Positions 4,152-39,623 of a stretch of DNA of 40,635 nucleotides are shown here, piece after piece. This stretch comes from a virus. Numbering within the stretch: the stretch's first letter is position 1; every line of letters starts with the position of its first letter. The notes below the pieces were generated by a model that was given only the letters and a program-made list of their open reading frames with translations, was not told the DNA's origin and did not search any database. The position numbers were made by a program, and so were the translations under genes. Location: the IMG/VR virus record IMGVR_UViG_3300031951_000422, positions 1-40,635 of that record; one strand, written 5' to 3'.

Positions 4152-4155
4152 CATT

Positions 4156-4662: not shown

Positions 4663-4686
4663 CGACAACTAATTAAATAAAATACA

Positions 4687-11600: not shown

Positions 11601-12232
11601 TGGCTTATATAGAGCACAATTTCTTTCCATTAAAAGTATTTGTTCGTAACGAATACATGTATCAATTTAAAAAAGGACTTGGAGAATTTACGGAAGGCAC
11701 TATAGTTTCTGTAAGATGTTTGCCAGGTCAAGCGGCTTTATTTCAAGTATTGCTTAACAATGGGGTGATGAGAGACAAGTTACCATCTCATGCTTTACTT
11801 ATAGAAGACAAACTTCCTAGTCCAGACCTTCCGTTTCATTTTCTTCAGATATGGAATTGCTTTTCGTATAATTTTACAATTACTCAACTATCGTATGTTT
11901 ATGATACAAAAGTTGAGGTGTTTATGAAGGATAAAAAATGGTATAGTGGGTCTTATTATGCTACAATAAATTGGGGCTCTAACGACATAAATACAGATAT
12001 ATCGTTAGCTGAGGATCCATTAGAGCATAAATCGCATCATATAATATTGCTTGACAATGGACAGATTGCTCTTCAGCCTAACAATAGGATAAAATGGTCT
12101 GAACCTTCGTTTGTCACTAAGGCATTCCCTGAGAAGCCAGACTACTTGGTGAATGATACGTACTTTAACTGTGAAGGTTATGAGAAGTGGAGTACAGAGG
12201 ATTCTTATATAATGTTTTATAGCAATGATTAA
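11600..12232 (+). CDS. conserved hypothetical protein next to the portal
   Basis: A 210-residue protein with many aromatic residues and a beta-rich look, without signal peptide, membrane span or recognisable catalytic motif. Segments such as FTEGTIVSVRCLPGQAALFQVLL and MRDKLPSHALL may form a small barrel-like N-terminal domain, and the middle has KWYSGSYYATINWG. It is tightly coupled to the portal gene (TAATG). I recall similarly placed ~200-residue proteins in related phages, usually left unnamed. A structural or assembly role is possible by position but not shown. Confidence 0.7.
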   Translation: MAYIEHNFFPLKVFVRNEYMYQFKKGLGEFTEGTIVSVRCLPGQAALFQVLLNNGVMRDKLPSHALLIEDKLPSPDLPFHFLQIWNCFSYNFTITQLSYVYDTKVEVFMKDKKWYSGSYYATINWGSNDINTDISLAEDPLEHKSHHIILLDNGQIALQPNNRIKWSEPSFVTKAFPEKPDYLVNDTYFNCEGYEKWSTEDSYIMFYSND

Positions 12233-12416
12233 AATGAAACAAAAAGCAAAATCAAAGGTGAATCAAGCTGGAAATTATACTAAGCCAGGCATGAGAAAGT
12301 CCTTGTTTGAAAAGATAAAAGCTGGCACAAAAGGTGGAGATCCAGGAGAATGGTCGGCTAGAAAAGCACAATTGTTAGCTAAAGAATATAAAGCAAAAGG
12401 GGGTGGTTACAAATGA
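12225..12416 (+). CDS. small lysine-rich conserved protein (63 aa)
   Basis: A strongly basic protein containing NYTKPGMRKSLFEKIKAG and GDPGEWSARKAQLLAKEYKAKGGGYK. The second block is familiar as a recurring small phage protein in which W-SARKAQ is conserved. No function is established to my knowledge. An ATG at 12234, just after the stop of the preceding gene, is an equally possible start giving a 60-residue product. It belongs to a run of five overlapping basic genes between portal and scaffold. Confidence 0.7.
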   Translation: MIKMKQKAKSKVNQAGNYTKPGMRKSLFEKIKAGTKGGDPGEWSARKAQLLAKEYKAKGGGYK

Positions 12417-12685
12417 AAAGTTTATCTAAATCTCAAAAAAGTTTAAAGAATTGGACTGAGCAAGAATGGATGACTTCAGGTACATATTCAAACTTGAAGA
12501 AAGGAAAGTCCAAAGAGGTGAAGTCAGCAGGTAAGAAGAGATATTTGCCTAAGTCAGCATGGTCTTCTTTGACGGATAAAGAGAAAGAGGCTACAAATAA
12601 AGCTAAGGCGAAAGGAAACAAAGAGGGAAAGCAGTTTGTATCTCAACCAAAAGAGATAAAGGCAAAAACTAAAAGACATAGATAA
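12413..12685 (+). CDS. small lysine-rich conserved protein (90 aa), KKSLKNWTEQEW type
   Basis: A 90-residue basic protein with SLKNWTEQEWMTSG near the start and GKKRYLPKSAWSSLTDKEKEATNKAKAKG in the middle. This pairing (a tryptophan-centred N-terminal motif and a K-R-Y-L-P-x-x-A-W block) is a recurrent signature of small proteins in phages and some plasmids, placed in a DUF5872-like family from memory. The function is unknown. It overlaps both neighbours (ATGA-type with the previous, one base with the next). The positive charge suggests contact with DNA or RNA. Confidence 0.7.
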   Translation: MKSLSKSQKSLKNWTEQEWMTSGTYSNLKKGKSKEVKSAGKKRYLPKSAWSSLTDKEKEATNKAKAKGNKEGKQFVSQPKEIKAKTKRHR

Positions 12686-12996
12686 TGGCAGCAAGTAAAG
12701 ATTCAAGACTAGCAAGAGCTGGAGTAAGTGGCTACAATCAGCCAAAGAGAACTCCGAGCCATCCAAAAAAGTCTCACATTGTTGTAGCTAAGGTAGGTGA
12801 TGTTATAAAGACAATACGTTTCGGGCAGCAGGGAGTAAAGACAAATCAGACTGCAGGACAGCGTGAAGCATTTAAGTCTAGACACGCAAAGAATATATCT
12901 AAGGGAAAATTATCAGCTGCATACTGGGCCGATAAGGTTAAATGGAGCCCAAGTAAAACTGCATCACCAAGTAAAAAATGGGTTAAAGGATCATGA
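12685..12996 (+). CDS. small basic conserved protein (103 aa) with SRHAKNISKGKLSAAYWADKVKW motif region
   Basis: A 103-residue protein. The N-terminal part has DSRLARAGVSGYNQPKRTP and SHIVVAKVGDVIKTIRFGQQG. The C-terminal part (about residues 63-88) has a His/Lys-rich segment, AYWADKVKW. I recall this three-part layout from many phage genomes, including marine phages, where it is annotated only as a domain of unknown function. The conserved Gly-Gln-Gln-Gly and the Arg-His-x-x-Asn segment look like nucleic-acid contacts, but that is inference. It starts on the last base of the previous stop and overlaps the next gene by 4 nt. Confidence 0.75.
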   Translation: MAASKDSRLARAGVSGYNQPKRTPSHPKKSHIVVAKVGDVIKTIRFGQQGVKTNQTAGQREAFKSRHAKNISKGKLSAAYWADKVKWSPSKTASPSKKWVKGS

Positions 12997-13235
12997 AGAC
13001 TGTATCTATACAAGGCGTTAAGCATTTGGTTAAGAAGAACAAGAAAGGGGATGTTGTCGTAGAACATACCAATATACATAATGGGAAATACGACAAAATA
13101 AACCTAACTAAAAAAGCTAAATCAAAGACTGTATCAGAAGGAATTAAGGCAACAAAAAAATGGCATAAAGACAATCCATATGAAAAGCATAAAGACACCA
13201 AAGGCTCCAAAGCCAAAAAAACTACCAATAGGTAA
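12993..13235 (+). CDS. small basic hypothetical protein (80 aa)
   Basis: An 80-residue protein starting MKTVSIQGVKHLVKKNKKGD, with VVVEHTNIHNGKYDKINL and a lysine-rich C-terminal half containing ATKKWHKDNPYEKHK. No domain is recognised. Its start overlaps the previous gene (ATGA). Its 3' end overlaps a further small frame at 13180. It is the fourth of five basic genes here, and co-transcription is expected. Confidence 0.6.
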   Translation: MKTVSIQGVKHLVKKNKKGDVVVEHTNIHNGKYDKINLTKKAKSKTVSEGIKATKKWHKDNPYEKHKDTKGSKAKKTTNR

Positions 13236-13296
13236 GATACCAAAAAGCAGGATGGCGACTAAAGCGCCAGTGCCTAAAAACCCTAAAAAAATGTGA
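13180..13296 (+). CDS. tiny Lys/Pro-rich protein (38 aa) overlapping the previous gene
   Basis: A 38-residue frame from ATG at 13180 to TGA at 13294-13296, shifted by +1 relative to 12993-13235 and overlapping it by 56 nt. The product is almost wholly lysine, proline and small residues (KTPKAPKPKKLP, KAPVPKNPKK). It fills the space up to the next promoter without leaving a gap, which favours a real gene, but the composition is low in complexity and it could be fortuitous. Confidence 0.45.
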   Translation: MKSIKTPKAPKPKKLPIGKIPKSRMATKAPVPKNPKKM

Positions 13297-13311
13297 TATC
13301 GTTTTTTTAGT

Positions 13312-13319
13312 TAATTTTG
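13312..13319 (+). promoter_or_regulatory. TAnnTTTG promoter box upstream of scaffold/capsid genes
   Basis: TAATTTTG in the 44-nt gap between 13296 and 13341, 21 nt before the ATG. It is preceded by a T-run, and no clear -33 element is seen. Confidence 0.5.
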
Positions 13320-13340
13320 TAACAATTTAAATTAAATATA

Positions 13341-14450
13341 ATGAGTGAGTTTAAAGTAAGAGCTGTTGATTTTGAAGAGAAGTCTGCAGTTGAAATGGAG
13401 CAAGAGTTAGTTGAACGACACGAGAAAGAACTAACTGGAGAGCCAACGGGAGAAGTTTCTACAGATGAGCCTAAAGAGGTTACAGAGGAAACGGTAGTAA
13501 AAGATGAAACAAGTGAACAGGCAGTACCTGTCACTTACGAAATAAAAGACGAAGACGTTCTTTCACATATTAGAAACAGATACAACAAAGAGATTAACTC
13601 TATTGATGATCTGTTCGCGCAAAGAGAGGCTAACGATGATTTGCCGGAAGACGCTGCCGCATTCTTGAGATTCAAGAGGGAGACAGGCAGAGGCATTGAG
13701 GACTTCGTTAAATTGAATAGAGATTACGGTAGCATGGATGAAAAGTCTTTGCTTGCTGAATACTATTCAGTTACTAATCCTGAATTCGATAAAGAAGATA
13801 TAGCTTGGAAAATAGACGAGCTTTCTTACGATGAGGATTATGATGACGAAAAGACTATTAAGTCTAAGAAGTTAGCATTAAAACAAGAACTTAAAAGAGC
13901 GAGTGATTTCTTTGATAAGCAAAAGGAGCAATATAGAGTTCCGCTTGAGTCAAGCAGAAACTCTGCACCGATTGTAGATGAAGAATACGAGCACTTTAAG
14001 CAATACAAACAGCAGTCAGTCCAGGCTGAAGAGGAGACGCGTAAAAAGTCTGATTATTTTGTTGCTAAGACAAACGAGTTGTTTTCTGAAAAGTTCGAAG
14101 GTTTCGAATTCAATTTAGATGACAGTAAGGTTGTGTATAAACCAACAGATATCAGTACTCTTAAAGAGCAGTCAGATATGGCGAAATTCGTAAAAGGATT
14201 TCTAAATGAAGACGGATATCTTAAAGACGCAGCTGCATTTCATAGGGCTATTGCTATCGCATCCAATCCTGAAAAATTTGCCAAGTTCTTTTATGACAAA
14301 GGTAAATCTGATGGAGTAGGAAGCATTGCAGAAGAATCTAAAAACATTGACATGGGAAGACCTGCTACGACGATAACGCCAAAGCAAGGGTTCTCAGTTA
14401 GGGCTTTAGAATCTGAAGCACCAGATTATAAAATAAGAGGTAAAAAGTAA
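13341..14450 (+). CDS. capsid scaffolding protein (probable)
   Basis: A 369-residue, strongly acidic and mostly helical protein directly upstream of the major capsid gene. The first ~75 residues are a disordered Glu/Thr/Val-rich region. Residues ~170-230 contain highly charged helix (ELKRASDFFDKQKEQYR, EEYEHFKQYKQQSVQAEEETR). The C-terminus becomes basic at the end (PDYKIRGKK), as expected for the capsid-binding tail of scaffold proteins. Scaffolds shape the prohead and leave or are cleaved before packaging. The role rests on position and composition, because scaffolds diverge too much for motif recognition. Confidence 0.7.
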   Translation: MSEFKVRAVDFEEKSAVEMEQELVERHEKELTGEPTGEVSTDEPKEVTEETVVKDETSEQAVPVTYEIKDEDVLSHIRNRYNKEINSIDDLFAQREANDDLPEDAAAFLRFKRETGRGIEDFVKLNRDYGSMDEKSLLAEYYSVTNPEFDKEDIAWKIDELSYDEDYDDEKTIKSKKLALKQELKRASDFFDKQKEQYRVPLESSRNSAPIVDEEYEHFKQYKQQSVQAEEETRKKSDYFVAKTNELFSEKFEGFEFNLDDSKVVYKPTDISTLKEQSDMAKFVKGFLNEDGYLKDAAAFHRAIAIASNPEKFAKFFYDKGKSDGVGSIAEESKNIDMGRPATTITPKQGFSVRALESEAPDYKIRGKK

Positions 14451-26022: not shown

Positions 26023-27546
26023 ATGGCAGAATACGCAGGATATATACCAGGACAATCTATTGATTGGCTGTCTTTAGCTAAAGGAGTAAAGGCAGATATA
26101 GATCAAGGACTCAAAGCTCGTGAAGAAAGAAAAGCAGCAGATCAAAAGCTAGTTACTGATGTTGCGTCTAAGTTAAAAGGATGGGAGTCTACTCAAAATA
26201 AAGCATTCAATCAAGTTGTTTTTGGCGGTTTAGATAAGGCTAGAAATCAATCATTAGAGTGGAATAGACAGCTCAGAAACGGAGAGATAAATAGAGCTGA
26301 GTATCAAATGAGAATGAATAATCTTAACGAATCATTTGATGCGTTTTCTACAGCTACAAAAAACTTTGATGAATATGTTGTGGGAATAAATCAAAGAAAT
26401 CAAGAAGGTTTATCTTCTTCATTTGAAATGTTCTCTGCAAACATAAACTCAAGATTGATGAATCTTGGGACAAAAGAAATGCAGATAGGGGAAAGTGGAG
26501 ACTTCTTTTTTTCTGATGCAGATGGATCTATTCAGAACGTTAGGAATTATACTAACATGAATAACATTGTGGATAATAAGATTGACGTAGCAAAGTCAGT
26601 TGATCAAGTTGTTTCTAAATGGGACGATGTAACTAGACAAACATTATTGGCTGGAGGAAGGACTGTTTTAGAAACAGACCCTAGAATAAATGCTGCATAC
26701 AATAAAACTAAAGCCGACCTTATTGGATCATTGGTAGACGCTAACAATCCAAGAGGGATTACTTCTATTCTTTTAGATAATTCAGATCTCGACTACAATC
26801 TATATTACACTGCAGACGATGCAAGGAATATTATTTCTAAAGCCGTGTCAAATGAAGAGATGGCATTAGGAAGAACAATGACTGATGACGAGAGAGAGAA
26901 GTTCAGCGAAAAGTACTTCAATGAAAACATGATTCAAGTCGTTCAGGACAACGATGGAAACTATCAGCCAAGACTTAACGACAAGATGATTGCAGATGCA
27001 AAGAAGGTTGTTGAGAATCAAATAGAGCAACAGTTAGGATTTAAGAAAGAAGAAGAGAGAGGATTTGCTCCATCTGGTGGCGGTGGAAGAAGCGGTGGCG
27101 GTGGCGGTAAAGACGACGAAATAGATGTAACTCTATGGGATACACTTGCTGGTGCGTGGATGAAATTTGATGAGACTACACTTAATTCATATTTGAAGGA
27201 TAAGGGAAAATATAAAGTTGAAAGAAGCACTAAAGACCCTAAAAAATATGTGCTATATGAACTAAGAAGGGATCCTCTTGACTTTGAAAACAAAAAACCT
27301 GCAGTTCCAATAAAGAAATTCGCATCTGACGATCTTACTGACTTTATACCATATTATTTTGGTACAGGTCCAGCCGCTGAGAAGAAAGCGAAAGAACAAA
27401 GGGATGAGTGGAGAGCAAAATATAGACCTAGTTCTACAGCTAATGCCACATCAACATACAGCATTAAAGGAAAAACATATACGCTTCAAGAGCTTGAAAA
27501 AATGGGATATACCGCAGATCAAGTAGAACAATATAAAGTTAAATGA
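26023..27546 (+). CDS. internal virion (ejection) protein, middle-sized
   Basis: A 507-residue, mostly helical, charged protein with a linker of alternating glycine runs at residues ~350-365 (PSGGGGRSGGGGG) between an N-terminal helical part and a smaller C-terminal domain. The C-terminus, TYSIKGKTYTLQELEKMGYTADQV, ends in a short helix-hairpin motif. I recall this ending on several proteins of this genome region in related phages, where it may serve as a packaging or docking element. The gene overlaps the next by 4 nt. An ejection or internal core role is inferred from its place between two other such proteins. No enzyme motif is seen. Confidence 0.65.
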   Translation: MAEYAGYIPGQSIDWLSLAKGVKADIDQGLKAREERKAADQKLVTDVASKLKGWESTQNKAFNQVVFGGLDKARNQSLEWNRQLRNGEINRAEYQMRMNNLNESFDAFSTATKNFDEYVVGINQRNQEGLSSSFEMFSANINSRLMNLGTKEMQIGESGDFFFSDADGSIQNVRNYTNMNNIVDNKIDVAKSVDQVVSKWDDVTRQTLLAGGRTVLETDPRINAAYNKTKADLIGSLVDANNPRGITSILLDNSDLDYNLYYTADDARNIISKAVSNEEMALGRTMTDDEREKFSEKYFNENMIQVVQDNDGNYQPRLNDKMIADAKKVVENQIEQQLGFKKEEERGFAPSGGGGRSGGGGGKDDEIDVTLWDTLAGAWMKFDETTLNSYLKDKGKYKVERSTKDPKKYVLYELRRDPLDFENKKPAVPIKKFASDDLTDFIPYYFGTGPAAEKKAKEQRDEWRAKYRPSSTANATSTYSIKGKTYTLQELEKMGYTADQVEQYKVK

Positions 27547-30500
27547 TGCAAGATAATAACGATCCACTAGGAATACTTGGTGAAAAAAAGCCATCAAATA
27601 ATGGTAATGATCCACTTGGTATTTTAAAAAAAAAAGAAACTACGGTATCACCATCCGTACAAAAACAAGAACCTACTTCTTCGGTTACTCCTCCCAAGGG
27701 GCCTCAAAAGCCTTCGGTTTCTTCTGTATCAGAAAAGCCTGAGGGATTATATAAATTCCCAGGTAACGAAAAGGCTATATACAAGAAGCAAGGTAATGAA
27801 TGGTATGTAGACCCAAGTGGATCAGGTAAATTTACCAAGCTTTACAAAGGAGATGTAGAGGAAAGGGTTAAACTTCTAGAGGGGAAGGCTGTATCTTATT
27901 CAAGTAAAAAAGAAGAAAATGGAATATTTTCTGGAGTTCCTGGAAAGGAAGAAACAGAATATGTTTTAGATACATCCGGTGACAATCCAGTATGGGCAGA
28001 AAGGCGATTAAGTAGAATGCCTGATGGTACTGTAATAAAAGTCGTAAATAATCAAACTGGAAAATCAGAAGACAAGTATCATACTGTTCCAATAACCGAT
28101 CCTACAAGAGTTCAATATTTAAATAAATATTTTAAACAGAACGCTTCTACAGATAGAAATGAAAAAATATTTACAGGCCTACCAAACAAGGAGAAGAACG
28201 AATATAAGATTGAAGATGGTGTTTGGTTAAGACGACAGCCAGGTCAAGATGATTGGACAAAGATATATGACGAAACTGCTGTTTCTTATTTAAATAAAAA
28301 CTTTAATCAAAATGTAAAGGTAAGTCCTGCAGCTAGTAAATATGCTAAGTTTACTGAAGATGTAGATCAAGTAGAATTAAAAAATCTTGATAATAGACTG
28401 AGCTCTATAGATAAGTCTTTGGTTGGAAAGGAAGAAGAAGATGTGATAGTCGGTCTTAGGTCAAGGTTTCCTGAGTTCAAATTTGAAAAGGCTGGATTAA
28501 TGACTGATGAAATTATTGTTATTGCTCCAAACAAAGAAATAAAAACATTTCCACTTGACAACTTTACAGATAAAGCAGATGTAGCTGTTGCAAATGATAT
28601 GAAGGCTTGGATGAGAGCCAATTCAAATCTTAGGGGAATAGAGAATATAAAAGAATCTGAAAAAAATCTAGAGGAAAAAGAAAAACAATTAAGAGATCAG
28701 AAACTACCAGTATACAATCCTCAGATAAAGTTAGGAGAAGGATATGGACTAAGTCCTGAAATGAATGCTCAGATAACAGAGAAAGCACCAGATAATAAAG
28801 TAAATATAATGGTTGCAGAGCAGGAGGTGCGTGATGCTAGAAAGGAATATGCTAGTACTGTTTCTGGAGCATTTAAAGATATAAGAGATAGACAAATAAT
28901 AGCATCTAGAAGTGGAAATAGTCTTAGCGAAGATCAAGTTGCTGCAGAACTAGCTCAACTTCCAAAAGATTACACAGCGGTAAAGCGTGCCAATGAATAT
29001 ACAAATGATGTTAAGGAGTCAGTTAAAATGTATGCTGACAGAGTTAACTCATTGAATAAATATGCTAGTGATATATACGCAAAAGTAAATAGCGGAGAAA
29101 TAAGCAAAGAACAATTTGAGTTAGACTACAAACCATTAATAGATAAGTCAAGAGAAGCAATAGCACAAGAAGGAGAGCAGATAAATAACCAAGTTAAAAA
29201 TATGGGTTATATAGATGCATCTATAAATGAATCTGTTGGTCAGCAGTATGTAATAAATGAAGCTAAAGGATCTTTTGGTGGTGGACTTGCTTATAGGTTT
29301 GTAAAGGGAGTTACATATTTACCTAGACTTGCTGGGTCTATAGCTGCAGAAATTGCAGGAGAAACTACATTTACAAAAGAAGATCAAGACAGTTTTGCTA
29401 GAATGATTGTTGGCTCTGGTACCACTGAAGAGTATATGGAGTCTAAAGAGAGAAGTGATTTCTCGAAGGCTATGTTCTCTTTATCTGAGTCTATGGGCGC
29501 TTTAGCATCTGGAGGAGTTCTCGGTGGTGGCCCAGCTACTTATGCTGCATTTTATGCTCAGTCTTATTATGAGATGAAAGATGAGCTTGACCAAGTAAAA
29601 GGAATATCTGATACCGAAAAAGTATTAATGTCATCTGTTTATGGTGCGGTAAGTTCAGTTCTTGAAAAATTTGGTATTGACTTCGCTATGCAGAAAACTG
29701 GATTTGGTAAGAACATAACCAACTCAATAGTTAAGTCTGTACTTATGGATATGCCTAAGAATGCTCCAAAAGAATTTATTGAGGCATCTATAAGAAATAA
29801 TATTTCATCTACATTATTAAAAGCCGGAATAAGAACTGCAGGAGCTGGAATAGTAGAGGGCGCAACAGAAACGGCTCAAGCTCTATCACAAGTTGGAATT
29901 CAAGAAGTATATGACATAGCAAAAGGAACAGAGTACTTCAATAATAAATCTGGGTGGGAGATATTATCTGATGCAGCGTATGAAGGATATCTAGGAATGC
30001 TAGGTGGTCACGTAATGGGTGTTGTTTCAAACAGCAAGCAAGTTGCTACAGAGGGTATACAGAAATCAATGAATAAAGAACAGATGGAAGTTCTTTTTAA
30101 TTCAGCTAAGATGGATGGTATACCCGAGGCACTTCTTACGAATCTAAAGTCAAGCATAATATCTGGCAAGATATCCAAGCAAGAGGCTCAAGAGATTTAC
30201 AATTCATATGGAGAGGTTAAATCTAAAATTCAGTCTATACCTGAAGAGTACAGTGTTGAAAGCAAATCTGTCGCTTTAGATTTAATGCTTGAGAAAGATA
30301 GAATTAACAAACAAATAGCAGGTAAAGATGCAAACCTTGTCAAACCACAGATGGACAGAATTGCAGAAATAGATAACCAACTTAAAACAATAGGAGAAAA
30401 TGCCGTTAAAGAAAGCACAAAGCCAGTCCAAGAAGTCACTGCAGAAGGCGGTGGCATTCAACGTGAGGGAGCTCAAGAAAGACAACCTGAAGTCAGGGAA

Positions 30501-33500
30501 GGAGAGAGGCCAGTCGGGGAAACCGCGCAGCCAGAAACAGATCTTGGCAATCGCCCTATCGAAGGCAGGAGTGAAGAGGAAGTAGATAAGTTAATAGAAG
30601 ACAGAATAGCTAAATATAATCTACAGCCTGATGATTTATTTGCCGATATGAGTGAAGCAGATAATAATATAATTGAAAAAGCATCAAGAGGAGATTCTGT
30701 AGATATTAATGCTTTAAATGGAACTATTGATTATTTGTACAACAAGTACAAGGAAATAACCAATTTAAAGAAAAACAATGAAGAAAGGTTAAATAAGTCT
30801 ACTACACTTGGAAATTTAAATGATATCCAACAAGAGATTGAAAACGATCTTGACTTCTTGATTACTTATAAAGGAGAGGTAGAACAAGGAAACAATCCTA
30901 TAACTATAGAAGAGTTTAATAGCAGACCTATAACTGAGCGTAAAGTTTCTATGGAAGAAGCAGCTCTAGATATTGTACCGACTGAACCAACAGCAATCGA
31001 AGAAACAGTAGTTGAGCAGCCTGTAATCGAGAAAGCAGCTGTAGTCGAAGAGGTAGAGCGTTTAGGAAAGCTTTTAGAAGGAACAGCCGAGCAGATTGAT
31101 GAGCAAGTTGGTGGCCTCAAGATATCTAAGGACAATAGCAGGGTTGCTCAGTCTATATCAAATGCTGCAAAAGCAATCGCTAAAATTTTACCTGACGTTA
31201 AATTTGTCGTTCACGATACTGATGCATCATATCGTCAAGCTACTGGTGAGCAGAACAGAAAACAATCTACAGCTGGAGAATACAATCCAAAGACAAGGAC
31301 TATACATATAAATAATACTAAGGCTAATAATAGAACGGCAGCTCATGAAGTATTTCATGCCGTTATTCTTAATAGTGTAAAAAGCGATGCTGAAGCATCT
31401 CGAATTACAAAGGCAATGGTTGATTCTGTAAGAAAATCATTAGTTAACGTAGAAGGTGCTGGACAAGTAATTACATATTTAAATGATTTTACTTCTAACT
31501 ATGAAGAAAACATTCAGAACGAAGAAAAGTTAGCTGAATTATTTGGAATATTGTCAGATAATTATGCTACTCTTCCTGCACCTACGCAAAGTCTTATTAG
31601 AAGATTCTTAGATAGAATTGCAAAAATGTTCGGGTTGAAACCACTTACTGATAGAGAGGTTATTGATTTTATGAATGTAGTGTCTCAGAAGGTTGCTCGT
31701 GGTGAAGAGATACAGGCAAAAGAAATAAAATTATTTGGACCTAAAGAACAAGGGGACGGTGGAGAAGTTGGAACGTTTTCTATACCAAGGCAACAAAAAG
31801 AATCTAAGGTAATAAAAGCGCCAAGTGTAAAAAATGATGAAAGGTCATTTATTAGAAATATTGTACAAGATGTTGATATAAGAGAATTTAATGGAAAACC
31901 ATTTATAACTAACATGTATGATTACACTAATGCTGGAGAAACAAATCTTGGTAATGGTCTTACAATAAATCTTTTTGGAGGAAAAGGATATGTTCCATAT
32001 ATGATGGAATTAAAAGGAAAGAATATTGGAGAAGTATCTAACTTAGCTGCATTTAACACTAAAGCACAGGCAGAGACATTTATAAGAAATTCGATAAATG
32101 GTAATGCAAATTTATTTGCGCCTCATTCTGGAACATTAGATCAATCTTGGCAATTCCAACAGCATATGTTTGCTGAATTAGTAAATTTAATTTTAAAAAA
32201 CAATATTTTATCTAACTCTGAATTGATAGAATTATTCAATAATACTATAAAATCAAATGAAAAAACAATAAAAGCATTTAATGCATTTAAGAATAAATAT
32301 GGACAGGATATAAATAACTTTAATTCATTTGAATCAGATCCGAATGAAATAGTTAGGCTACTTGATATAGAAAATAATTTCTCTCCTGATTTGAGGAAAG
32401 CACTTAATAATGCCATACCTGCAAATAAAAAATTTAAAGACTCTTTAGGAATAAATAATAAAGATCAATTTTACAAAAAAATAATGGATCCACTAAATGA
32501 TGGAGTTGAAGGTGGAGAAATAATTAGTATAGTACAATTTGATCCAAATACTTTTGAGATAGTACAGACAAAACCAGGTGAAATTGATCATCACCCGTCA
32601 TTTGGATGGACTCTTTTAGCTAAAATAGATGGAGTTTATCAACCTACTGAGTTCTATAAATCATACGATGTAACTGAAACTTATACTAAATATAATAAAG
32701 ACAAAACCGAAGTATCAAGAAAAACAGAAGAAGAAAAATTTGCTCAAAAAAATGTAATGAGTAGCGCTGGAGCTATTCCTAAAATAGCAGAATTAAAATC
32801 TATCCGCAAACAGATAGACAATTCGTTCGAGGCGCGTAACCAAAAGCCGAAAAGTATAACTGCCATCATAAATGCAGCTAAACAGAACGGTTTCTCTGAT
32901 GCTGCTATTGAACAATATTTATTGGGGCAGGGATATAGTCAGCAAGAAATTGCCAATGCGATGACATCAAGATCTGCATCTGGGACAACTGTAAAAGACG
33001 TATTCAAGAAAAGCAAAGAAGAATTAGAGGCAAAATATAAAAAGCCATCAATATTCAAAAGATTTATGGAAGGCATAAAATCTTTTAGAAAAGCTATGTT
33101 TGATAGGCAGACAGACCTCAAGAGGGGAATGCGTGGCATAAAAAATAAAGAGGCCAAGCAAGCACATGCTAAATTGGTTGATAAAGCTGGAGCATCTGGA
33201 TTTGCAGGATTAAGATTTAAAATACTTGATAAAAAAATATATAGAGGCAAATTTAATAGAATGCTTCCTAAACAAGATTTAGATGCATTGGATGAAATCA
33301 TATACAGCAGAAGGATGATTGCCATAAATGAGAATAGAGCTAAATTAAGAGAAAAAGCATATAATGGATTGACCGAAGAATCTAAAAAAGATTTAGACAA
33401 TATAGTAAAATACAAAGAGAGTAAAAATACTAATGAACTAAATAAAATAAAAGATAGAGTAGGTGAAAAAGCATATAAAGATCTTTTAGATAGATCTGAA

Positions 33501-36104
33501 ATATATAAGGAACCGTATACTGGTCAAGATGGATTTAATGAATCAGATGCACAAAGAGATCTTGAAGACAAAAGAGCTGAACTTGGAGAAAAGAAATTTA
33601 ATGATTTGAATAGAAGGGCTGATATTTATTTTGATGCATTTTCAGAAAATTTAAAAATTCTTAAGGATTCTGGAAGGATAAATGAAGAGACATACAACAA
33701 TCTAAAGGACGTAGAATACTCTCCAATAAAGACGATTAAATATATCATTGATGATAATAAAGATTTATCAGATATTGATAGAGAGGCTGCTAGAATTGGA
33801 ATAACAAAAGACGACATAATGTCTCTTACTAATAAAAACGAAAATGGTATTATAAGTGATTCAAGGTGGTTATTAATGATGAATCTTAATACAGTAACTA
33901 ATAGAGCTTTCGAGAATCAAATGATAAATGAAATGGTAGATGCTTTAGAAAAAGCTACTCCAAAAGAAAAGTCTACTTTGTCTGAATATTTCATATTAGA
34001 TAATCCAGTTGTTGGAGAATTTAAAGATGGTCGTCCAAAAAGAAAGTACGATAGTGAGTCTATGCCTGATGGATATAGAAAAGTACATTACTTTAAAAAT
34101 GGAGTAGATAATTATATAATTGCAAGAGAGGACATAGCAAGACAAATATTGGATGTAAAAGAAACTAAAGTTGTCCCAGCTATAGAGCAATTTAACGAAG
34201 ATGTTCCAATATTAGGATGGTTATTAAAGAACATAGCATTGACTCCATCTAGAATGTTGCGGTTCTTTGCAACTGGTGGCAACCCATTCTTTATACTTCG
34301 AAATGTTCCAATGGACTGGGGTAATGCGGTTTTCTTTACTGATGTTTATTCTCATAAATGGTATGAATATTTCAAATTAATATCTGGAGTAAAAGCAGCT
34401 GTAGGATTTACTAAGAATTTTACAAAAAAAATGTTTAATGATCTTAAGAGAACAATTTTAAATGGAGAAATAGATAAGGTATACATGGAATATGCAGCAC
34501 ATGGAGGTCTAATGGAATCAATGTCTCAAGAAGGATTAAGAGCATTAAAAGAACTGAAGCCAAAAGGCAGAATAGCCAGTAAGATACCAAATGCTAAACT
34601 TACATCTGCACTTGAATTTACTGTAAATGCTCCATATAGAATATTGTCTGCATATGGAACTGCATTATCTTATTTAGGAGAAACATCTGAAATAGCCATG
34701 CGACTTGCTGTATATGAAAAGATGAAGAAAAATCTAATAGATGATTACAAGAAAGAAAATAATGGAGAAAACCCAACAGGAAAAGATCTTGACGATATAA
34801 TGTGGGAAGCATCCAGAGAAGCTAGAGAGCTTATAGACTTTAATCAAGGAGGTACATGGGCAAAAGAAATGGATGTTTTCATGCCATATTTTAATGCTGG
34901 TATGCAAGGGTTAAGGAAACCTTTAGATTTTGCAGAACAAAAGCCAGCTCAATTTGCATCTAGCATGGTTCAATTAGCTATAATGGGTGGAGTATTAGCT
35001 GGCACTTCCGTAGCTACTGCACTCGCAGCATTTGATGATGATGAAGATGATGAGGAGGAAAGAAAAAAGAAAGTGAAATTTGCTCTTGACTCAATATCAG
35101 TTCATGAAAAAGCAAATTATCATATAATTTTTACTGGTAAAAAAGATAAAAATGGAGAGTTACAATACATAAGAATAAAAAAACTTCCAGTTGCTTCTAT
35201 AATAACTACTGCAGCTGAGAATTTAATGTATAGTACTCAATTAGGATATGACAATAAGAAAGTTTTAGGCAAGACTTTAAAAGCATCTACTCCAGTATGG
35301 CCAACTGAAATACCTGGAAGAAATCCAATGATAGCTGCTATTGTAGCATATTATGGATATGACTTATTTACAGAAGAGCAAGTATTTAGAGCTCCTAAAA
35401 ATAAAAAAATACTTCCTATAGCTGAAGGATTGGAAGACGATAGAGTAGAAGCTATATATAAATCATTAGCTCCAAGTTTGGGCCTTTCTCCAGCAAGGTC
35501 AAAAGCATTCGTAGAGAAGATAATAACAAATGAAAGTACAAATCCTACGATTAATATTATCTATGCTGCTGCTAATGGAATATTTGATAGATCAACTCCT
35601 TTCGGACAAAATTTTACAATAATGTCTGATGAACTTTTAAAGCATGCAGAAAAACAATCTGTTAGGTATACAAACAAAGACATTGTAAGATACAGTCTAC
35701 AAGATGAATTCGAGAAGAAAGAAATGAAGAGAGAGACTGAAATATACCTTAAAGAACAAAAGGTATACAATCAGATTAAGAAAATTTATGACGAAGGAGG
35801 ATCACTTACAGTGGGAGAGCTTGAGAATATAGTAGAGAAGAACTTTGATAAAGCAAGGCAACTAACTGAGCTTAAAAAGTACTATGCGTATACTAGAAAC
35901 ATGAACATAGATAAATCAATGCTTGACATAGTTTATGAGGAAAATCCAGAGGTTCAGTCTATGAGAATATTTGAAAGATATGGAAATATAATAGACAAGG
36001 AGGAAGTAAAAGAGCTAGGTCAAATAATAGGAAATACAGGAAAACGAATAAGTCCTAAAACCTGGTACTATTATGAAAAAGAGTTCAAAGGAAAAATACA
36101 ATAA
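27543..36104 (+). CDS. giant internal virion polyvalent protein with zincin motif and LPD38-like region
   Basis: A 2853-residue protein. In order: two DPLGIL motifs (residues 7-12 and 23-28); three related repeats starting near 68, 127 and 209; coiled-coil region; hydrophobic stretches (about 575-680) and a GAGIVEGATETAQA block near 775; acidic Pro/Glu linker (950-1040); a zinc-protease-like domain with HEVFH at 1268-1272 and NEEKLAE near 1327; an unidentified domain (about 1430-1740); basic helical region; then GNPFFILRNVPMDWGN (near 2247) and DFNQGGTWAKEMDVFMPYF (near 2432). The last two match the large polyvalent protein associated domain LPD38 as remembered. A hydrophobic segment before an acidic run ends that region. 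Such proteins are thought to enter the host with the DNA. The protease activity is a prediction. Confidence 0.75.
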   Translation: MMQDNNDPLGILGEKKPSNNGNDPLGILKKKETTVSPSVQKQEPTSSVTPPKGPQKPSVSSVSEKPEGLYKFPGNEKAIYKKQGNEWYVDPSGSGKFTKLYKGDVEERVKLLEGKAVSYSSKKEENGIFSGVPGKEETEYVLDTSGDNPVWAERRLSRMPDGTVIKVVNNQTGKSEDKYHTVPITDPTRVQYLNKYFKQNASTDRNEKIFTGLPNKEKNEYKIEDGVWLRRQPGQDDWTKIYDETAVSYLNKNFNQNVKVSPAASKYAKFTEDVDQVELKNLDNRLSSIDKSLVGKEEEDVIVGLRSRFPEFKFEKAGLMTDEIIVIAPNKEIKTFPLDNFTDKADVAVANDMKAWMRANSNLRGIENIKESEKNLEEKEKQLRDQKLPVYNPQIKLGEGYGLSPEMNAQITEKAPDNKVNIMVAEQEVRDARKEYASTVSGAFKDIRDRQIIASRSGNSLSEDQVAAELAQLPKDYTAVKRANEYTNDVKESVKMYADRVNSLNKYASDIYAKVNSGEISKEQFELDYKPLIDKSREAIAQEGEQINNQVKNMGYIDASINESVGQQYVINEAKGSFGGGLAYRFVKGVTYLPRLAGSIAAEIAGETTFTKEDQDSFARMIVGSGTTEEYMESKERSDFSKAMFSLSESMGALASGGVLGGGPATYAAFYAQSYYEMKDELDQVKGISDTEKVLMSSVYGAVSSVLEKFGIDFAMQKTGFGKNITNSIVKSVLMDMPKNAPKEFIEASIRNNISSTLLKAGIRTAGAGIVEGATETAQALSQVGIQEVYDIAKGTEYFNNKSGWEILSDAAYEGYLGMLGGHVMGVVSNSKQVATEGIQKSMNKEQMEVLFNSAKMDGIPEALLTNLKSSIISGKISKQEAQEIYNSYGEVKSKIQSIPEEYSVESKSVALDLMLEKDRINKQIAGKDANLVKPQMDRIAEIDNQLKTIGENAVKESTKPVQEVTAEGGGIQREGAQERQPEVREGERPVGETAQPETDLGNRPIEGRSEEEVDKLIEDRIAKYNLQPDDLFADMSEADNNIIEKASRGDSVDINALNGTIDYLYNKYKEITNLKKNNEERLNKSTTLGNLNDIQQEIENDLDFLITYKGEVEQGNNPITIEEFNSRPITERKVSMEEAALDIVPTEPTAIEETVVEQPVIEKAAVVEEVERLGKLLEGTAEQIDEQVGGLKISKDNSRVAQSISNAAKAIAKILPDVKFVVHDTDASYRQATGEQNRKQSTAGEYNPKTRTIHINNTKANNRTAAHEVFHAVILNSVKSDAEASRITKAMVDSVRKSLVNVEGAGQVITYLNDFTSNYEENIQNEEKLAELFGILSDNYATLPAPTQSLIRRFLDRIAKMFGLKPLTDREVIDFMNVVSQKVARGEEIQAKEIKLFGPKEQGDGGEVGTFSIPRQQKESKVIKAPSVKNDERSFIRNIVQDVDIREFNGKPFITNMYDYTNAGETNLGNGLTINLFGGKGYVPYMMELKGKNIGEVSNLAAFNTKAQAETFIRNSINGNANLFAPHSGTLDQSWQFQQHMFAELVNLILKNNILSNSELIELFNNTIKSNEKTIKAFNAFKNKYGQDINNFNSFESDPNEIVRLLDIENNFSPDLRKALNNAIPANKKFKDSLGINNKDQFYKKIMDPLNDGVEGGEIISIVQFDPNTFEIVQTKPGEIDHHPSFGWTLLAKIDGVYQPTEFYKSYDVTETYTKYNKDKTEVSRKTEEEKFAQKNVMSSAGAIPKIAELKSIRKQIDNSFEARNQKPKSITAIINAAKQNGFSDAAIEQYLLGQGYSQQEIANAMTSRSASGTTVKDVFKKSKEELEAKYKKPSIFKRFMEGIKSFRKAMFDRQTDLKRGMRGIKNKEAKQAHAKLVDKAGASGFAGLRFKILDKKIYRGKFNRMLPKQDLDALDEIIYSRRMIAINENRAKLREKAYNGLTEESKKDLDNIVKYKESKNTNELNKIKDRVGEKAYKDLLDRSEIYKEPYTGQDGFNESDAQRDLEDKRAELGEKKFNDLNRRADIYFDAFSENLKILKDSGRINEETYNNLKDVEYSPIKTIKYIIDDNKDLSDIDREAARIGITKDDIMSLTNKNENGIISDSRWLLMMNLNTVTNRAFENQMINEMVDALEKATPKEKSTLSEYFILDNPVVGEFKDGRPKRKYDSESMPDGYRKVHYFKNGVDNYIIAREDIARQILDVKETKVVPAIEQFNEDVPILGWLLKNIALTPSRMLRFFATGGNPFFILRNVPMDWGNAVFFTDVYSHKWYEYFKLISGVKAAVGFTKNFTKKMFNDLKRTILNGEIDKVYMEYAAHGGLMESMSQEGLRALKELKPKGRIASKIPNAKLTSALEFTVNAPYRILSAYGTALSYLGETSEIAMRLAVYEKMKKNLIDDYKKENNGENPTGKDLDDIMWEASREARELIDFNQGGTWAKEMDVFMPYFNAGMQGLRKPLDFAEQKPAQFASSMVQLAIMGGVLAGTSVATALAAFDDDEDDEEERKKKVKFALDSISVHEKANYHIIFTGKKDKNGELQYIRIKKLPVASIITTAAENLMYSTQLGYDNKKVLGKTLKASTPVWPTEIPGRNPMIAAIVAYYGYDLFTEEQVFRAPKNKKILPIAEGLEDDRVEAIYKSLAPSLGLSPARSKAFVEKIITNESTNPTINIIYAAANGIFDRSTPFGQNFTIMSDELLKHAEKQSVRYTNKDIVRYSLQDEFEKKEMKRETEIYLKEQKVYNQIKKIYDEGGSLTVGELENIVEKNFDKARQLTELKKYYAYTRNMNIDKSMLDIVYEENPEVQSMRIFERYGNIIDKEEVKELGQIIGNTGKRISPKTWYYYEKEFKGKIQ

Positions 36105-38003: not shown

Positions 38004-38238
38004 ATGATTTTATTGAGTGATCTCTTAGCTCTTTCATCCTGTACTCCTGCAATGGCTTTGGCTTTTTGCCTTGCTGCTTAACTTCAAAGAACACTGCATT
38101 GCATCCTTTCGGCAAAGCTATAATGTCGGGTATACCAGGCTTGTTTGTTACAGAGAGCTTAAGGACATAATATCCTTGTGACTCTAACTCCTTAATTAGT
38201 TTCGACTGTATCTTTGATTCCATCAAGATAATCATCAA
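37936..38238 (-). CDS. VRR-NUC family nuclease (PD-(D/E)XK fold)
   Basis: A 100-residue protein with the VRR-NUC layout: an N-terminal ESKIQSKLIKELESQGY helix, then KPGIPDIIAL (Asp38), VFFEVKQQ (Glu52, Lys54) and PLQEYRMKEL (Gln64). Together these form the PD-(D/E)XK catalytic site. Stand-alone VRR-NUC proteins of about this size are common in phages and are thought to act on structured or Holliday-junction DNA during replication and recombination. The start at 38238 gives MMIILMESK; the ATG at 38223 (MESKIQ) fits family N-termini better. The last ~15 residues do not look like the family. Confidence 0.82.
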   Translation of the reverse strand: MMIILMESKIQSKLIKELESQGYYVLKLSVTNKPGIPDIIALPKGCNAVFFEVKQQGKKPKPLQEYRMKELRDHSIKSFVYDGTWSIHSGLGDEGCSETT

Positions 38239-38542
38239 AGTTTGCGAATGGGAGTTCTTCCTGGAATCCGGAGTAGTATGCCTCTTTCATCAAGGAGATG
38301 AGATCCTTGTTCAGTCTGTTTACATTTGTAACAAACCAACGATTGAAGTTACGCTCATCGTTCTTAAGCCACATTTCGTAGATTTCGTCTATTGGTGATT
38401 TCATTTCATTTACTTTACCTGTACCATTACACATTTCACACTTTACTGTTTCATAGCATCCACCACAACAAGCGCTTGCCGGCATACTACAGTTCGGACC
38501 TACTTCATAAGTTCCGCTTCCAAAACAATTTTTGCATTCCAT
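38192..38542 (-). CDS. small zinc-ribbon (DnaJ CXXCXGXG-like) protein
   Basis: A 116-residue protein. The N-terminal 43 residues carry CKNCFGSG (Cys3, Cys6) and CEMCNGTG (Cys35, Cys38), the repeat type of the DnaJ zinc-finger region, plus Cys18, 25, 26 and 29 between them. This is a zinc-binding mini-domain without a J domain. The C-terminal ~70 residues are helical and acidic and unrelated to DnaJ as far as I can see. DnaJ-type ribbons bind unfolded protein; some phage versions may bind nucleic acid. It overlaps the nuclease gene by 47 nt. Confidence 0.65.
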   Translation of the reverse strand: MECKNCFGSGTYEVGPNCSMPASACCGGCYETVKCEMCNGTGKVNEMKSPIDEIYEMWLKNDERNFNRWFVTNVNRLNKDLISLMKEAYYSGFQEELPFANFDDYLDGIKDTVETN

Positions 38543-38589
38543 AAAATTACATTTAAAAATTTAACTTAACTAAAATTTGCGCTTATTTT

Positions 38590-38964
38590 TTATTTGTTGC
38601 GCCTATATTCTATTTCTTTTCTAATAATATTAATATGCCATTCTGCACCACCATAATCCAAGACAGCCTGTAGGTAGTCATCATCCATATCGCATATCGC
38701 AATCCACGATAACGGCTGATCTCCATTCGGGCCTCGGCTACCTCTTACGGCATGCTTTCTTACAATCTCAAAGTCGTCATCGTCATAGACATCTATCTTT
38801 TCAATCTTACTCATGTCCTTAGCTCCATATCTACCATAAGCTGTTCCTCCATCAACCATCGCTCCGTTCGGACAGCCGCACGTTTTGTAGTCATGTCTGC
38901 TGTAACTAACTAACAGTTCATTGCACTCTAAGCACCTAACTGCATTATATACTATTTGTTTCAT
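38590..38964 (-). CDS. zinc-ribbon protein with conserved phage C-terminal region
   Basis: A 124-residue protein. The N-terminal part contains NAVRCLECNELLVSYSRHDYKTCGCPNGAMVDGG, where Cys11, Cys14, His24, Cys29 and Cys31 can bind zinc. This matches a small domain of unknown function (DUF7695 as I recall) seen in many phages. The C-terminal ~45 residues (PLSWIAICDMDDDYLQAVLDY, then IIRKEIEYRRNK) form a second conserved unit found in other phage proteins. Its start lies just downstream of the inverted repeat at 38999-39026. The function is not established. Confidence 0.7.
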   Translation of the reverse strand: MKQIVYNAVRCLECNELLVSYSRHDYKTCGCPNGAMVDGGTAYGRYGAKDMSKIEKIDVYDDDDFEIVRKHAVRGSRGPNGDQPLSWIAICDMDDDYLQAVLDYGGAEWHINIIRKEIEYRRNK

Positions 38965-38998
38965 ATCTTATAAATAAACGGATAAATATCGATTATAT

Positions 38999-39026
38999 GT
39001 CCAGTTTTTTGCACAATAAACTGGAC
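38999..39026. repeat. perfect 9-bp inverted repeat, possible operator or mRNA hairpin
   Basis: GTCCAGTTT and AAACTGGAC are separated by 10 nt. On the minus strand this lies between a TAGTTTTG box (39045-39038) and the ATG at 38964. It may be a repressor site or a structured 5' leader of the zinc-ribbon gene. The absence of a T-run makes a terminator unlikely. Confidence 0.55.
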
Positions 39027-39037
39027 TATTAACAAGC

Positions 39038-39045
39038 CAAAACTA
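39038..39045 (-). promoter_or_regulatory. possible TAnnTTTG box upstream of the zinc-ribbon operon
   Basis: The minus-strand sequence TAGTTTTG fits the -7 consensus. No TTTG is found about 20 nt upstream, so this is weaker than the 37318 site. It is followed by the inverted repeat at 38999-39026. Confidence 0.35.
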
Positions 39046-39078
39046 CGATTTTTCATGAGATTTGGCTGCATATAAATA

Positions 39079-39125
39079 TAACAAAGTATAAGCGCAACTA
39101 TCGCTGCGCCTATACGAATGTTAGC
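39079..39125. repeat. attC-like folded element (or plain hairpin) in the 38965-39132 non-coding stretch
   Basis: Read on the plus strand: TAACA, AA, an 11-nt arm GTATAAGCGCA, an 8-nt loop, the arm TGCGCCTATAC (one mismatch on this strand, a G-U pair in minus-strand RNA), GAA, and TGTTA followed by GC. Outer 5-bp and inner 11-bp stems separated by unequal unpaired bases are the layout of integron attC sites (R box, spacer, L box, terminal loop). It stands just behind the stop of the 39133-39336 gene. The outer boxes match the RYYYAAC/GTTRRRY consensus only in part. A transcriptional pause or terminator hairpin is the main alternative. Confidence 0.4.
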
Positions 39126-39132
39126 AGTAATG

Positions 39133-39336
39133 CTACTTTCTTCGTAAATCAAACTTTTCTTTAAGTTCATTGTAAACAGCTTCACCATCTAAATACATAT
39201 CACCACTTTTATTCTGTTGAAATTTCCAAGCAAGTATTCCAAATAAATCATCCCATGCTTTAAACTCCGCACTACTGCTAACATCGGCTATATTCAATGC
39301 CTTAGTTTCTTCTACTTTTGAATTTTCGTTTTCCAT
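39133..39336 (-). CDS. small acidic hypothetical protein (67 aa)
   Basis: A 67-residue protein starting MENENSKVEETKALNIADVSSS and continuing with an amphipathic, Trp-containing part (AEFKAWDDLFGILAWKFQQN, then YLDGEAVYNELKEKF). It has no signal peptide or membrane span. It is preceded by a 65-nt gap with a small inverted repeat and followed by the attC-like element. Its position as a single gene backed by a folded element is what makes it notable. The function is unknown. Confidence 0.6.
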   Translation of the reverse strand: MENENSKVEETKALNIADVSSSAEFKAWDDLFGILAWKFQQNKSGDMYLDGEAVYNELKEKFDLRRK

Positions 39337-39375
39337 TTTAAATTTTATTTTATAAGTTAATTTAGTTTTTATAAG

Positions 39376-39395
39376 TCGGCACTAAATATAGCCGA
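39376..39395. repeat. short inverted repeat containing a TATATTTA box in the 39337-39401 gap
   Basis: TCGGC and GCCGA pair around ten A/T-rich bases. The loop on the minus strand reads TATATTTAGT, one base away from TAnnTTTG. It could be a promoter with a small operator for the 67-aa gene, or chance. Confidence 0.3.
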
Positions 39396-39401
39396 GAAAC
39401 G

Positions 39402-39623
39402 TTATATCACTTTCTTACATCTCTCTATCAATTCAGCTAGCTCGTCAAGACTGTCTATCGACCAACCTGTCGGTGTTCTTAGAACAATGTAGCATTCGCC
39501 ATCTTCTATAACGGTAGATGATTCTAGTTCGATAGTTAGTTCTTCCACTTCATTTGTGGATCCATTGCAATTTCCTTCCTGAGAAAATTCAAATTTCGCA
39601 CTGTGTAAAATAGGTTTTTCCAT
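39402..39623 (-). CDS. small acidic hypothetical protein (73 aa)
   Basis: A 73-residue protein with two strand-rich parts (SAKFEFSQEG, VEELTIELESSTVIEDGECYIVLRTPTGW) and a C-terminal acidic helix (SLDELAELIERCKKVI). It overlaps the end of the helicase gene by 35 nt, so it is probably co-translated with it. The composition is like small phage inhibitor or adaptor proteins, but no family is recognised and no function is claimed. Confidence 0.65.
   Translation of the reverse strand: MEKPILHSAKFEFSQEGNCNGSTNEVEELTIELESSTVIEDGECYIVLRTPTGWSIDSLDELAELIERCKKVI

Follow-up and report, generated by a model that had tools for sequence, protein, structure and literature searches.

An attC-type recombination site that probably ends a small mobile cassette in a tailed phage, and its relatives in the gene arrays of large viruses

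In the current study, we detected an attC-like hairpin in a 40,635-nt stretch of viral DNA (the whole stretch analysed, hereafter the window). On the sequence evidence it is very probably an attC-type site at the 3' end of a mobile cassette of a tailed phage, moved by a tyrosine recombinase acting in trans, with the cassette body tagged in frame by a long attC-like site lying upstream. Relatives of these sites in gene arrays of large viruses often appear to supply the start of the next protein. What the DNA itself shows comprises the sites and their covariation, paired cassette ends, tags fused in frame, and sites located beside a recombinase.

We infer that a tyrosine recombinase acts on these sites in trans, cutting G^TTA in their folded form, and that cassettes would leave and enter as circles. 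The enzyme would be borrowed by the smaller phage from outside the window, either as a XerA/IntI-like recombinase encoded beside arrays in larger, possibly co-infecting viruses, or as a host integron integrase. The upstream partner would be a long attC-like site with a start codon in its loop, where a crossover within a GTT (Val) codon would lead to an incoming start-less body being translated in frame behind a site-encoded N-terminal tag, the fused body stopping at or just before its own R''.

The short attC-like site

The features of the window discussed here, all on the minus strand, are as follows.

39079-39126, short attC-like site: R'' TGCTAAC 39126-39120, spacer 39119-39116, L'' GTATAGGCGCA 39115-39105, loop 39104-39097, L' TGCGCTTATAC 39096-39086, spacer 39085-39083, R' GTTA 39082-39079
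39279-39404, long attC-like site: TAAC 39404-39401, left stem 39395-39378, right stem 39301-39284, R' GTTA 39282-39279, with a start codon in the loop
39280-39336, putative site-encoded tag MENENSKVEETKALNIADV, spanning codons 1-19 of the 67-aa gene, with a presumed crossover core at codon 19 (GTT)
39133-39279, start-less cassette body, codons 20-67 and stop, with signs of purifying selection in frame
39082-39281, inferred mobile cassette, extending between G^TT (long site) and G (short site)
39402-39623, 73-aa gene, ending in the R'' of the long site (TAA of TAAC)
39030-39065, possible remnant of a third site, AGCCAAA...TTTTGGCT-T-GTTA, in which the TAAC half is missing (from reading the sequence and blastn)
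38238-39589, variable stretch with the cassette, from helicase to VRR-NUC (Hjc-like) gene

Read on the minus strand, on which the genes between 36148 and 40635 are encoded, the short site runs TGCTAAC-ATTC-GTATAGGCGCA-loop-TGCGCTTATAC-TTT-GTTA (39126-39079). The outer TAACA/TGTTA stem, inner 11-bp stem, 8-nt loop and unequal spacers (ATTC / TTT) that a sequence-only reading had described are indeed present at 39079-39125. A single A.C mismatch interrupts the inner stem on the plus strand; on the minus strand this pair is G.T and the stem is unbroken. Folding of both strands, which that reading had proposed as a check, gave z -4.35 for the minus strand (0/200 dinucleotide shuffles as good) and z -2.39 for the plus strand (3/200).

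As in attC sites, which conserve no letters beyond these, R'' contains AAC (TAAC 39123-39120) and R' contains GTT (GTTA 39082-39079), and the site is an imperfect palindrome with an L stem, an unpaired central spacer and a variable terminal loop; in the wider site set, the TAAC/GTTA boxes are partly there by construction, the sites having been picked by TAAC/GTTA. The R''-L'' arm of attC sites is described as carrying two or three extrahelical (unpartnered) bases in the accessible text of PMC2727003. Such bases are absent from the window site, both arms of which have 11 bases, and in their place stands the G.T pair of the coding strand (A.C on the bottom strand). The attC reading of the hairpin was largely right. 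Taken together, the sequence supports an attC-type recombination site that would end a small mobile gene in a phage.

The same hairpin has the form of an intrinsic terminator, a G+C-rich hairpin followed by a T run, and a terminator scan picked exactly this minus-strand hairpin (13 pairs, tail TTTGTTATAT; 1 found vs 0.4 expected), the G.T pair leaving the RNA stem uninterrupted on the coding strand alone. Yet an ordinary terminator behind the 67-aa gene, that is, a minus-strand RNA hairpin with a U-rich tail, needs neither TAAC/GTTA outside the stem nor the same outer box recurring behind different sequences; it leaves the cassette-end match and the in-frame fusion described below unexplained, and relatives differ at this spot. 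Termination is unlikely to be the sole role of the hairpin, and as a complete account of it we regard an ordinary terminator as highly improbable. Terminator likeness and a recombination site are compatible, neither excluding the other.

Searches of the window with Rfam gave no family at the gathering score; a weak tmRNA match near the element (E 0.15, 38556-38609) was well below cut-off and was rejected, and no tRNA or tmRNA was found in the window. A 75-aa ORF reading through the hairpin (38961-39188, minus) was dropped as a gene, its matches being short and partial (43 aa, 56%, in L082 and copies; also L115/L135). At 38577-38607, in the 3' end of the DUF7695 gene, the stem letters recur in part (TATAGGCGCAA ... 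AAGCGCAA) without forming a hairpin, and similar letters occur in L083 (1286-1316).

Detection against background and covariation

The sites were scored with a purpose-built detector (TAAC, spacer, stem, spacer, GTTA) in which bulges are disallowed, so that bulged sites elsewhere would be missed. The short site scored 11.5, only just beyond chance by this test alone, since one match of at least 11.5 (maximum 12.0) also arose when the whole window was Markov-shuffled 100 times and both strands were scanned. The long site (39404-39279) scored 16.0, above every one of the 100 shuffles.

As a substitute for the IntegronFinder model, a covariance model (R1) was built from 14 short sites of other phages (loci L002, L006, L022, L087, L093, L142, L143, L148, L153, L161, L168 and L170), with all GTATAGGCGCA sites held out. 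The covariance scan that had been suggested for this element came out in its favour: R1 gives the window site 38.2 bits (E 1.5e-6, the E-values of the tool being rough), with the runner-up over the full 40,635 bases at 14.2 bits (E 0.87). Matches of R1 in the window, L016, L031/L032, Polaribacter phage P12002L and all GTATAGGCGCA loci are independent of its training, and those in L002/L004/L005, L006, L022, L087/L132 and one in L093/L128 are not. All 11 inner-stem pairs of the 14 short sites vary on both sides, with a covariation of 0.716 vs 0.226 in shuffles and at most 0.170 in slid versions; as the detector that picked these sites requires boxes and stem, it is the variety of pairs that counts and not the share paired.

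In 229 kb of the large phage G007 outside its array, R1 found nothing at E up to 1. The detector background in the same 229 kb amounted to seven matches of at least 11, of which two resemble a stray tagged site and its neighbour (about 194,240-194,930) and five, in three places, are AT-rich hairpins. The former place (L184, 16238-16925), far from the array, has a long site with a tag (MAKSNKELQDEIDNSRALFIADV) and another site after it.

The long site, the 67-aa gene and the inferred cassette

A repeat search of the window showed that 39378-39395 pairs with 39284-39301 (18 nt), forming the stem of the long site, and that 39118-39133 matches 39269-39284 (16 nt), joining both ends of the stretch between the two sites. 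Of the surroundings of the element, the earlier reading had seen the hairpin correctly and had missed the second site (39404-39279) and the cassette-end match (39282-39269 with 39133-39120). The own ends of the window cassette, GTTAGCAGTAGTGC (39282-39269) and GCATTACTGCTAAC (39133-39120), pair over 15 bp with one G.T, and its rejoined circle form folds at -22.3 kcal/mol vs -12.3 kcal/mol for the site as it stands (coding strand, DNA parameters).

The proposal that the whole 67-aa gene (39133-39336) is a mobile cassette stands for codons 20-67 and the stop; codons 1-19 lie outside the cassette, because they are encoded by the upstream long site. Since this site holds the start codon and the first 19 codons, the body is fused in frame to a site-encoded peptide. 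The 67-aa frame shows signs of purifying selection, as suggested by pS/pN values for the whole gene of 0.182/0.039 vs L082 and 0.258/0.096 vs L083, and for the body alone (codons 20-67, few sites) of pS 0.260 and pN 0.046 vs L082 and pS 0.327 and pN 0.117 vs L083.

Relatives of the 67-aa gene were found in three viral contigs, L082 (91%), L083 (81%) and L084. In L084, the first 31 residues alone match the 67-aa protein (71%), the remainder being a different protein, and the DNA homology with the window spans 39406-39269, i.e., the long site and little more. L083 has kept tag and body, without the left arm of the long site and without the short site behind, and L091 has nearly the same tag as the window and another body. 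A relative of the 73-aa gene in L193 (58%) has no site behind it. In L006, homology to the window restarts (24 nt) adjoining the GTTA (39026) of the possible decayed third site.

Place of the cassette in related phages

Relatives were fetched by the helicase gene (80 of 168), giving 81 loci with the window. Helicase and VRR-NUC genes lie on one strand in 70/81 loci, with an intervening stretch of 42-2778 bp, in which other short sites occur in three kinds of relatives. Related phages thus vary at this spot, and the constant gene order that would have pointed to an ordinary hairpin was not what we observed.

At a detector score of 10, the window alone has sites in the helicase-VRR-NUC stretch among the 81 loci. 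At a score of 9, a short site appears in the same stretch in L002/L004/L005 (near-identical), L006 and L022; elsewhere in the 80 loci there is one site in L016 and a probable chance match in L039. R1 adds two further sites, one in L031 and one in L032, both past the VRR-NUC gene. In L112, the record of L016, a long site bearing the tag MKTEFNNTENEALNKTDV is followed by a body unlike that of the window and then by a short site with stem GTATAAGCGC; as read from the DNA, this is the layout of the window with another gene. After the cassettes, L016 840-1100 resembles by eye a split tRNA or a group I intron, with no tRNA called. Elsewhere in the window, 27543-36104 encodes a 2853-aa protein with an HEVFH motif, by eye probably a very large virion protein.

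Recurrence of the sites in other viruses

The stem of the short site was found by pattern search in 13 viral stretches and is preceded by TAAC and followed by GTTA in 11 of them (L106-L115, L117). The other two were rejected, L105 having the stem without TAAC and L116 an unrelated palindrome, as were the pattern matches in L099, L100 and L101, which are not site-like in appearance. L112 and L114 share the preceding gene and L108 starts at the site, which leaves nine different preceding sequences. The expectation that the same element would occur behind different sequences in other viruses was therefore borne out, with at least nine distinct preceding sequences among the 11 stretches (compared at the level of sequence).

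The right arm of the long site (TTGAATATAGCCGATGTTA) occurs in 12 viral stretches, mostly with different coding sequences after it. Exceptions are L087/L094, which share one coding sequence, and L086/L091, which share another; L088 is cut short, L089 corresponds to the record of L082 and encodes a relative of the 67-aa body, and in L091 two sites follow each other in tandem. No similar DNA was found in the plasmid collection, and the one match in the phage collection, to a Pelagibacter phage, was weak (E 7e-3) and covered 18% of the query. A match in genome_contigs (L097), the sole one of a single exact-pattern scan, lacks the left arm and was dismissed as chance.

Pairing of cassette ends and the conserved wobble

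Were a cassette to form a circle with its join at G^TTA, its two ends would be expected to pair with each other. This pairing was counted over 12 positions beyond GTTA/TAAC, which the detector does not use, in 96 cassettes from 26 sources (15 gaps were dropped for size or edge). Ends of one cassette had on average 8.23 Watson-Crick pairs of 12 vs 4.36 between the halves of one site, and shuffled partners gave 4.34 (sd 0.16, maximum 4.90 in 2000). The own end paired better in 83/96 cassettes, with 4 ties and 9 worse, and the pairing falls off past 11 positions. Watson-Crick pairs are rare at position 7 (9/96), where a mismatch or wobble almost always stands instead, the left base being G in 71 cassettes and the right base T in 94. 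The complementarity of own R'' and R' that circle formation by attC sites calls for is thus present in the 96-cassette set and in the window cassette. Judged from these sequences, end pairing is a mark of cassette exchange through circles, which would themselves be formed by the recombinase.

A G.T pair 14 nt inside GTTA is present in 40/41 medium and 72/73 long sites whose stem reaches there (44 medium and 78 long sites in all, kept if the 5' spacer is at least as long as the 3' spacer), always with G on the R'' arm. Short sites have a G.T pair at 8 nt in 7/28 cases, the window site included.

Matching cassette ends could also be the 15-bp terminal inverted repeats of a transposon-like unit moved by a transposase, the stems then being chance or regulatory hairpins. 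Neighbours in tandem arrays nevertheless share one site, the stems between cassettes are palindromic with a fixed wobble, and the sites lie upstream of a tyrosine recombinase in all testable loci (see below), and we find a transposon hardly credible.

In-frame fusion of site-encoded tags

Among 113 cassettes from 28 sources, 58 lie behind long sites, and in 31/58 the ATG of the site is open into at least half of the cassette, with 26 in the GTT frame, 5 in frame 2 and 0 in frame 1; the remaining 27/58 long sites have no tag. A site ATG opens into the cassette in 0/29 cases behind medium sites and 2/26 behind short sites. The five long sites read in frame 2 (L143, L148, L149, L160, L168) perhaps mark a second phase class of cassettes. 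For cassettes below 700 bp, an own ORF over 70% of the length is absent in 18/32 tagged ones and present in 14, and it is present in 55/75 untagged ones and absent in 20. As tagged cassettes often have an ORF of their own, the tag is not always indispensable.

In a later test, TTGAATATATCTGATGTTA was searched in viral contigs, giving 70 matches in 64 stretches, which after setting apart 5 at edges and 11 repeats of one context leave 54 distinct contexts, 45 of them new and nine already in the earlier loci. These LNISDV-type sites have an in-frame ATG in the GTT frame in 54/54 cases, and none in another frame, before 54 differing bodies; 52/54 open at least 30 codons past GTT, and the left arm TAAC...AGATATATT was matched in 38. 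With the own R'' of a cassette defined as the best-pairing TAAC within 900 nt, 48/54 cassettes have one with at least 11 of 15 pairs, and the stop falls within -25 to +3 nt of R'' in 47. Since the pattern was chosen for the tag, these counts show consistent use and not universal tagging of such sites.

Bodies of one family (59% over 74 aa) occur with two different tags, at 5798-6118 (minus) in L122 and from 4559 on in L091. From the sequences, tag and body seem to be exchanged separately.

Arrays of sites beside a tyrosine recombinase

The long-site record G007 (265,845 bp, 265.8 kb) has a 97-nt exact terminal repeat and was for this reason taken as circular. PHROGs matches include a baseplate wedge subunit, a major head protein, a DNA polymerase and a ribonucleotide reductase; phage marker genes were checked in G007 alone, the other recombinase loci being viral by IMG/VR class. 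On its minus strand, eleven sites scoring at least 8.5, and more by eye, lead up to a gene for a 267-aa tyrosine recombinase. Relatives of this enzyme, whole or part, were found in 38 loci, 29 of them full-length and 25 of those with at least 700 nt upstream. Same-strand sites lie within 4 kb upstream of the recombinase in 25/25 of these testable loci (one site in 4 loci, 2-11 in 21), amounting to 105 sites upstream vs 1 within 4 kb downstream. Because L145/L146/L147, L150/L152 and L157/L158 are near-identical, the independent loci are fewer than 25.

Residues R133, K158, K161, H217, R220, H243 and Y252 of the recombinase are kept in 20/20 aligned sequences. Its closest profile is the XerA-type NF040815 (177-189 bits, cut-off 220), and it falls below every curated NCBIfam cut-off listed, including that of the integron integrase TIGR02249 (158 bits, cut-off 265). 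It skips positions 208-253 of the integron-integrase profile, a stretch which we take to be the IntI-specific domain, and has 37 residues where IntI4 (2a3v) has 85. With a score below the cut-off and this stretch missing, the array-linked enzyme would fall outside the IntI family. The predicted structure (pLDDT 78.7) is closest to 4a8e (Z 18.3), and its PDB matches comprise Xer, Cre, lambda-type and IntI4 chains, so that the structure rules out no family.

The earlier remark that the window has no integrase agrees with our search, in which no recombinase of this family was found in the window record. The 30 records chosen for sites or for the 67-aa gene hold the whole enzyme in one case and a fragment in one. 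Related recombinases (36-43% identity) of two Bacteroidota plasmids and two flavobacterial phages had no sites at score 10 in the regions examined.

In L123 (record G015, 9195-9536, minus), a C-terminal tyrosine recombinase fragment forms an in-frame fusion with a site tag (MSNLAQTPQLNIADVSGS...) and may represent a recombinase that decayed and became a cassette. Site loops with tRNA T-arm-like stretches (GGTTCGATTCC, GGGTTCGACTCCC) occur in L149 (2205 and 2596) and L170 (7478). ARAGORN called no tRNA in L149 and 23 in L170, none of them at the T-arm-like loop; these 23 tRNA genes lie around the sites at 597-14156.

Comparison with integrons and phage-borne attC sites

The attC sites of the virulent Polaribacter phage P12002L, one of two tried having been recombined by IntI1, were described by Qi et al. 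2023 (PMC9892861, accessible text). R1 finds sites of the same form in this phage, with scores of 46.3, 43.9 and 35.3 bits; matched positions are 30005-30058, 30906-30957 and 38876-38938, and two of these sites share their loop, TCGTTTTAATG, with the short sites studied here. Their flanking methyltransferase genes suggest that they are the sites of Qi et al., as far as the available text of that article allows. With attC-like sites also at 32220-32283 and 38035-38090, besides that at 38876-38938, P12002L (L188) has more of them than the two of the published assay.

These parallels also suit a reading that overlaps with ours and differs in the enzyme, namely that the sites are true attC sites from chromosomal integrons of the hosts (Bacteroidota), with a host IntI as the enzyme that moves them, and that phages just pick up the cassettes. 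The recombinase-linked arrays, however, sit in viral records themselves, and we consider a purely host-driven origin possible, though on the unlikely side. The preferred reading, a trans-acting recombinase with in-frame tagging by the long site, has its own counterweights, namely the enzyme below the integrase cut-off, the site-free related recombinases, the absent bulges, the detector background and the terminator score.

Phage CALINs (attC clusters without integrase) such as that of P12002L likewise comprise attC-like sites and small cassettes in a lytic-type phage, as reported in the consulted text of PMC9892861. The main text of Qi et al. does not contain the words 'start codon' or 'in-frame' and does not describe a site-encoded tag, and an array-plus-recombinase unit in a giant phage was not found in the accessible text of that study (PMC9892861). 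In class 1 integrons, translation is aided by ORF-11/17/18 in attI1 and by short ORFs in attC (PMC8876359), and an accidental fusion of the gcuF1 and blaOXA-28 cassettes is on record (PMC3375312), both according to the retrieved portions of these articles. There too, a site or an upstream cassette affects or supplies the translation of the next cassette, but as coupling or as a single two-cassette fusion in those portions, whereas here dozens of different cassettes share a frame across the crossover.

A recombinase codirectional with the cassettes is also known from some integrons; in those, intI points at attI and precedes the array, whereas here the array occupies the upstream side of the recombinase gene and is directed toward the 5' end of that gene. 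Archaeal XerA and bacterial XerC and XerD are closest to the phage enzyme by profile and structure, from which it differs by the adjoining attC-like sites. Compared with classical integrons, the sites have no bulged bases, the recombinase lacks the IntI-profile stretch and the cassettes point toward the recombinase. The system would thus work like an integron, and strict membership, judged from sequence features, fails on extrahelical bases and integrase.

Overall, the window appears to hold a genuine attC-type site and cassette in a phage, of a kind described in 2023, and a probable variant of it, with site-encoded gene starts and a phage-borne recombinase, that we did not find described. In the consulted parts of the open-licence PMC literature, preprints excluded, we found neither a giant-phage array with recombinase nor an in-frame attC tag, and we did find phage CALINs and translational effects of attI and attC. 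These results point to integron-style gene exchange resident in large phages and to a gene route between phages. A recombination site that acts as the coding start of the next gene would solve the expression of start-less cassettes, and the shuffling of protein modules by site-specific recombination becomes directly testable.

A possible capsid leader in some tags

A more speculative and rather doubtful extension is that giant phages have an integron-like machine with their own non-IntI recombinase and sites serving as portable gene starts, that an LNISDV leader loads interchangeable virion proteins for injection into the next host, and that the window cassette is an LNIADV module passed to a smaller phage. 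Should the leader direct proteins into the capsid, it would give phages a plug-in cargo loader. For T4 IPIII, the available text of PMC9026906 reports that the first ten residues suffice for head entry, also of foreign proteins. Some LNISDV tags and nine untagged G030 proteins have a leader resembling the capsid targeting sequences of T4 internal proteins, which are N-terminal leaders attachable to unrelated proteins; in T4, as far as that text describes it, the leader is part of each gene, whereas here it would come from the recombination site (PMC9026906).

The tag MKDLKHIKRFNESEENLNISDV has nine residues in common with another G031 protein, MKHIKRFNESDKKIK, near which no site was detected. 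The leader motif was searched with four regular expressions, all tried after viewing the tags, and the leader is absent from the window tag (LNIADV class, sister of LNISDV); because of this later tuning and of the leader-less window tag, the capsid leader stays hypothetical, with post hoc, weak to moderate support from sequence. In 102 loci, one expression matched six untagged proteins N-terminally among 1645 ORFs vs 7/6130 internal windows, and another had no N-terminal match in G030, G031 or G007. A third matched 11 untagged proteins among the 474 ORFs of G030, 8 among 323 in G031 and 3 among 528 in G007 (internal windows 0.9%, 0.3% and 0.6%). The expression shaped on T4 internal proteins and tags matched 9 untagged proteins among the 474 ORFs of G030 (0.65 expected from shuffles), 2 in G031 (0.35) and 0 in G007 (0.70). 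No sites at score 8.5 lie within 3-3.5 kb of the five leader proteins checked. Among ten leader proteins, PHROGs gave unnamed families for two and named ones for two, an endolysin and a protein which we interpret as Dps-like from the label 'starvation-inducible transcriptional regulator'.
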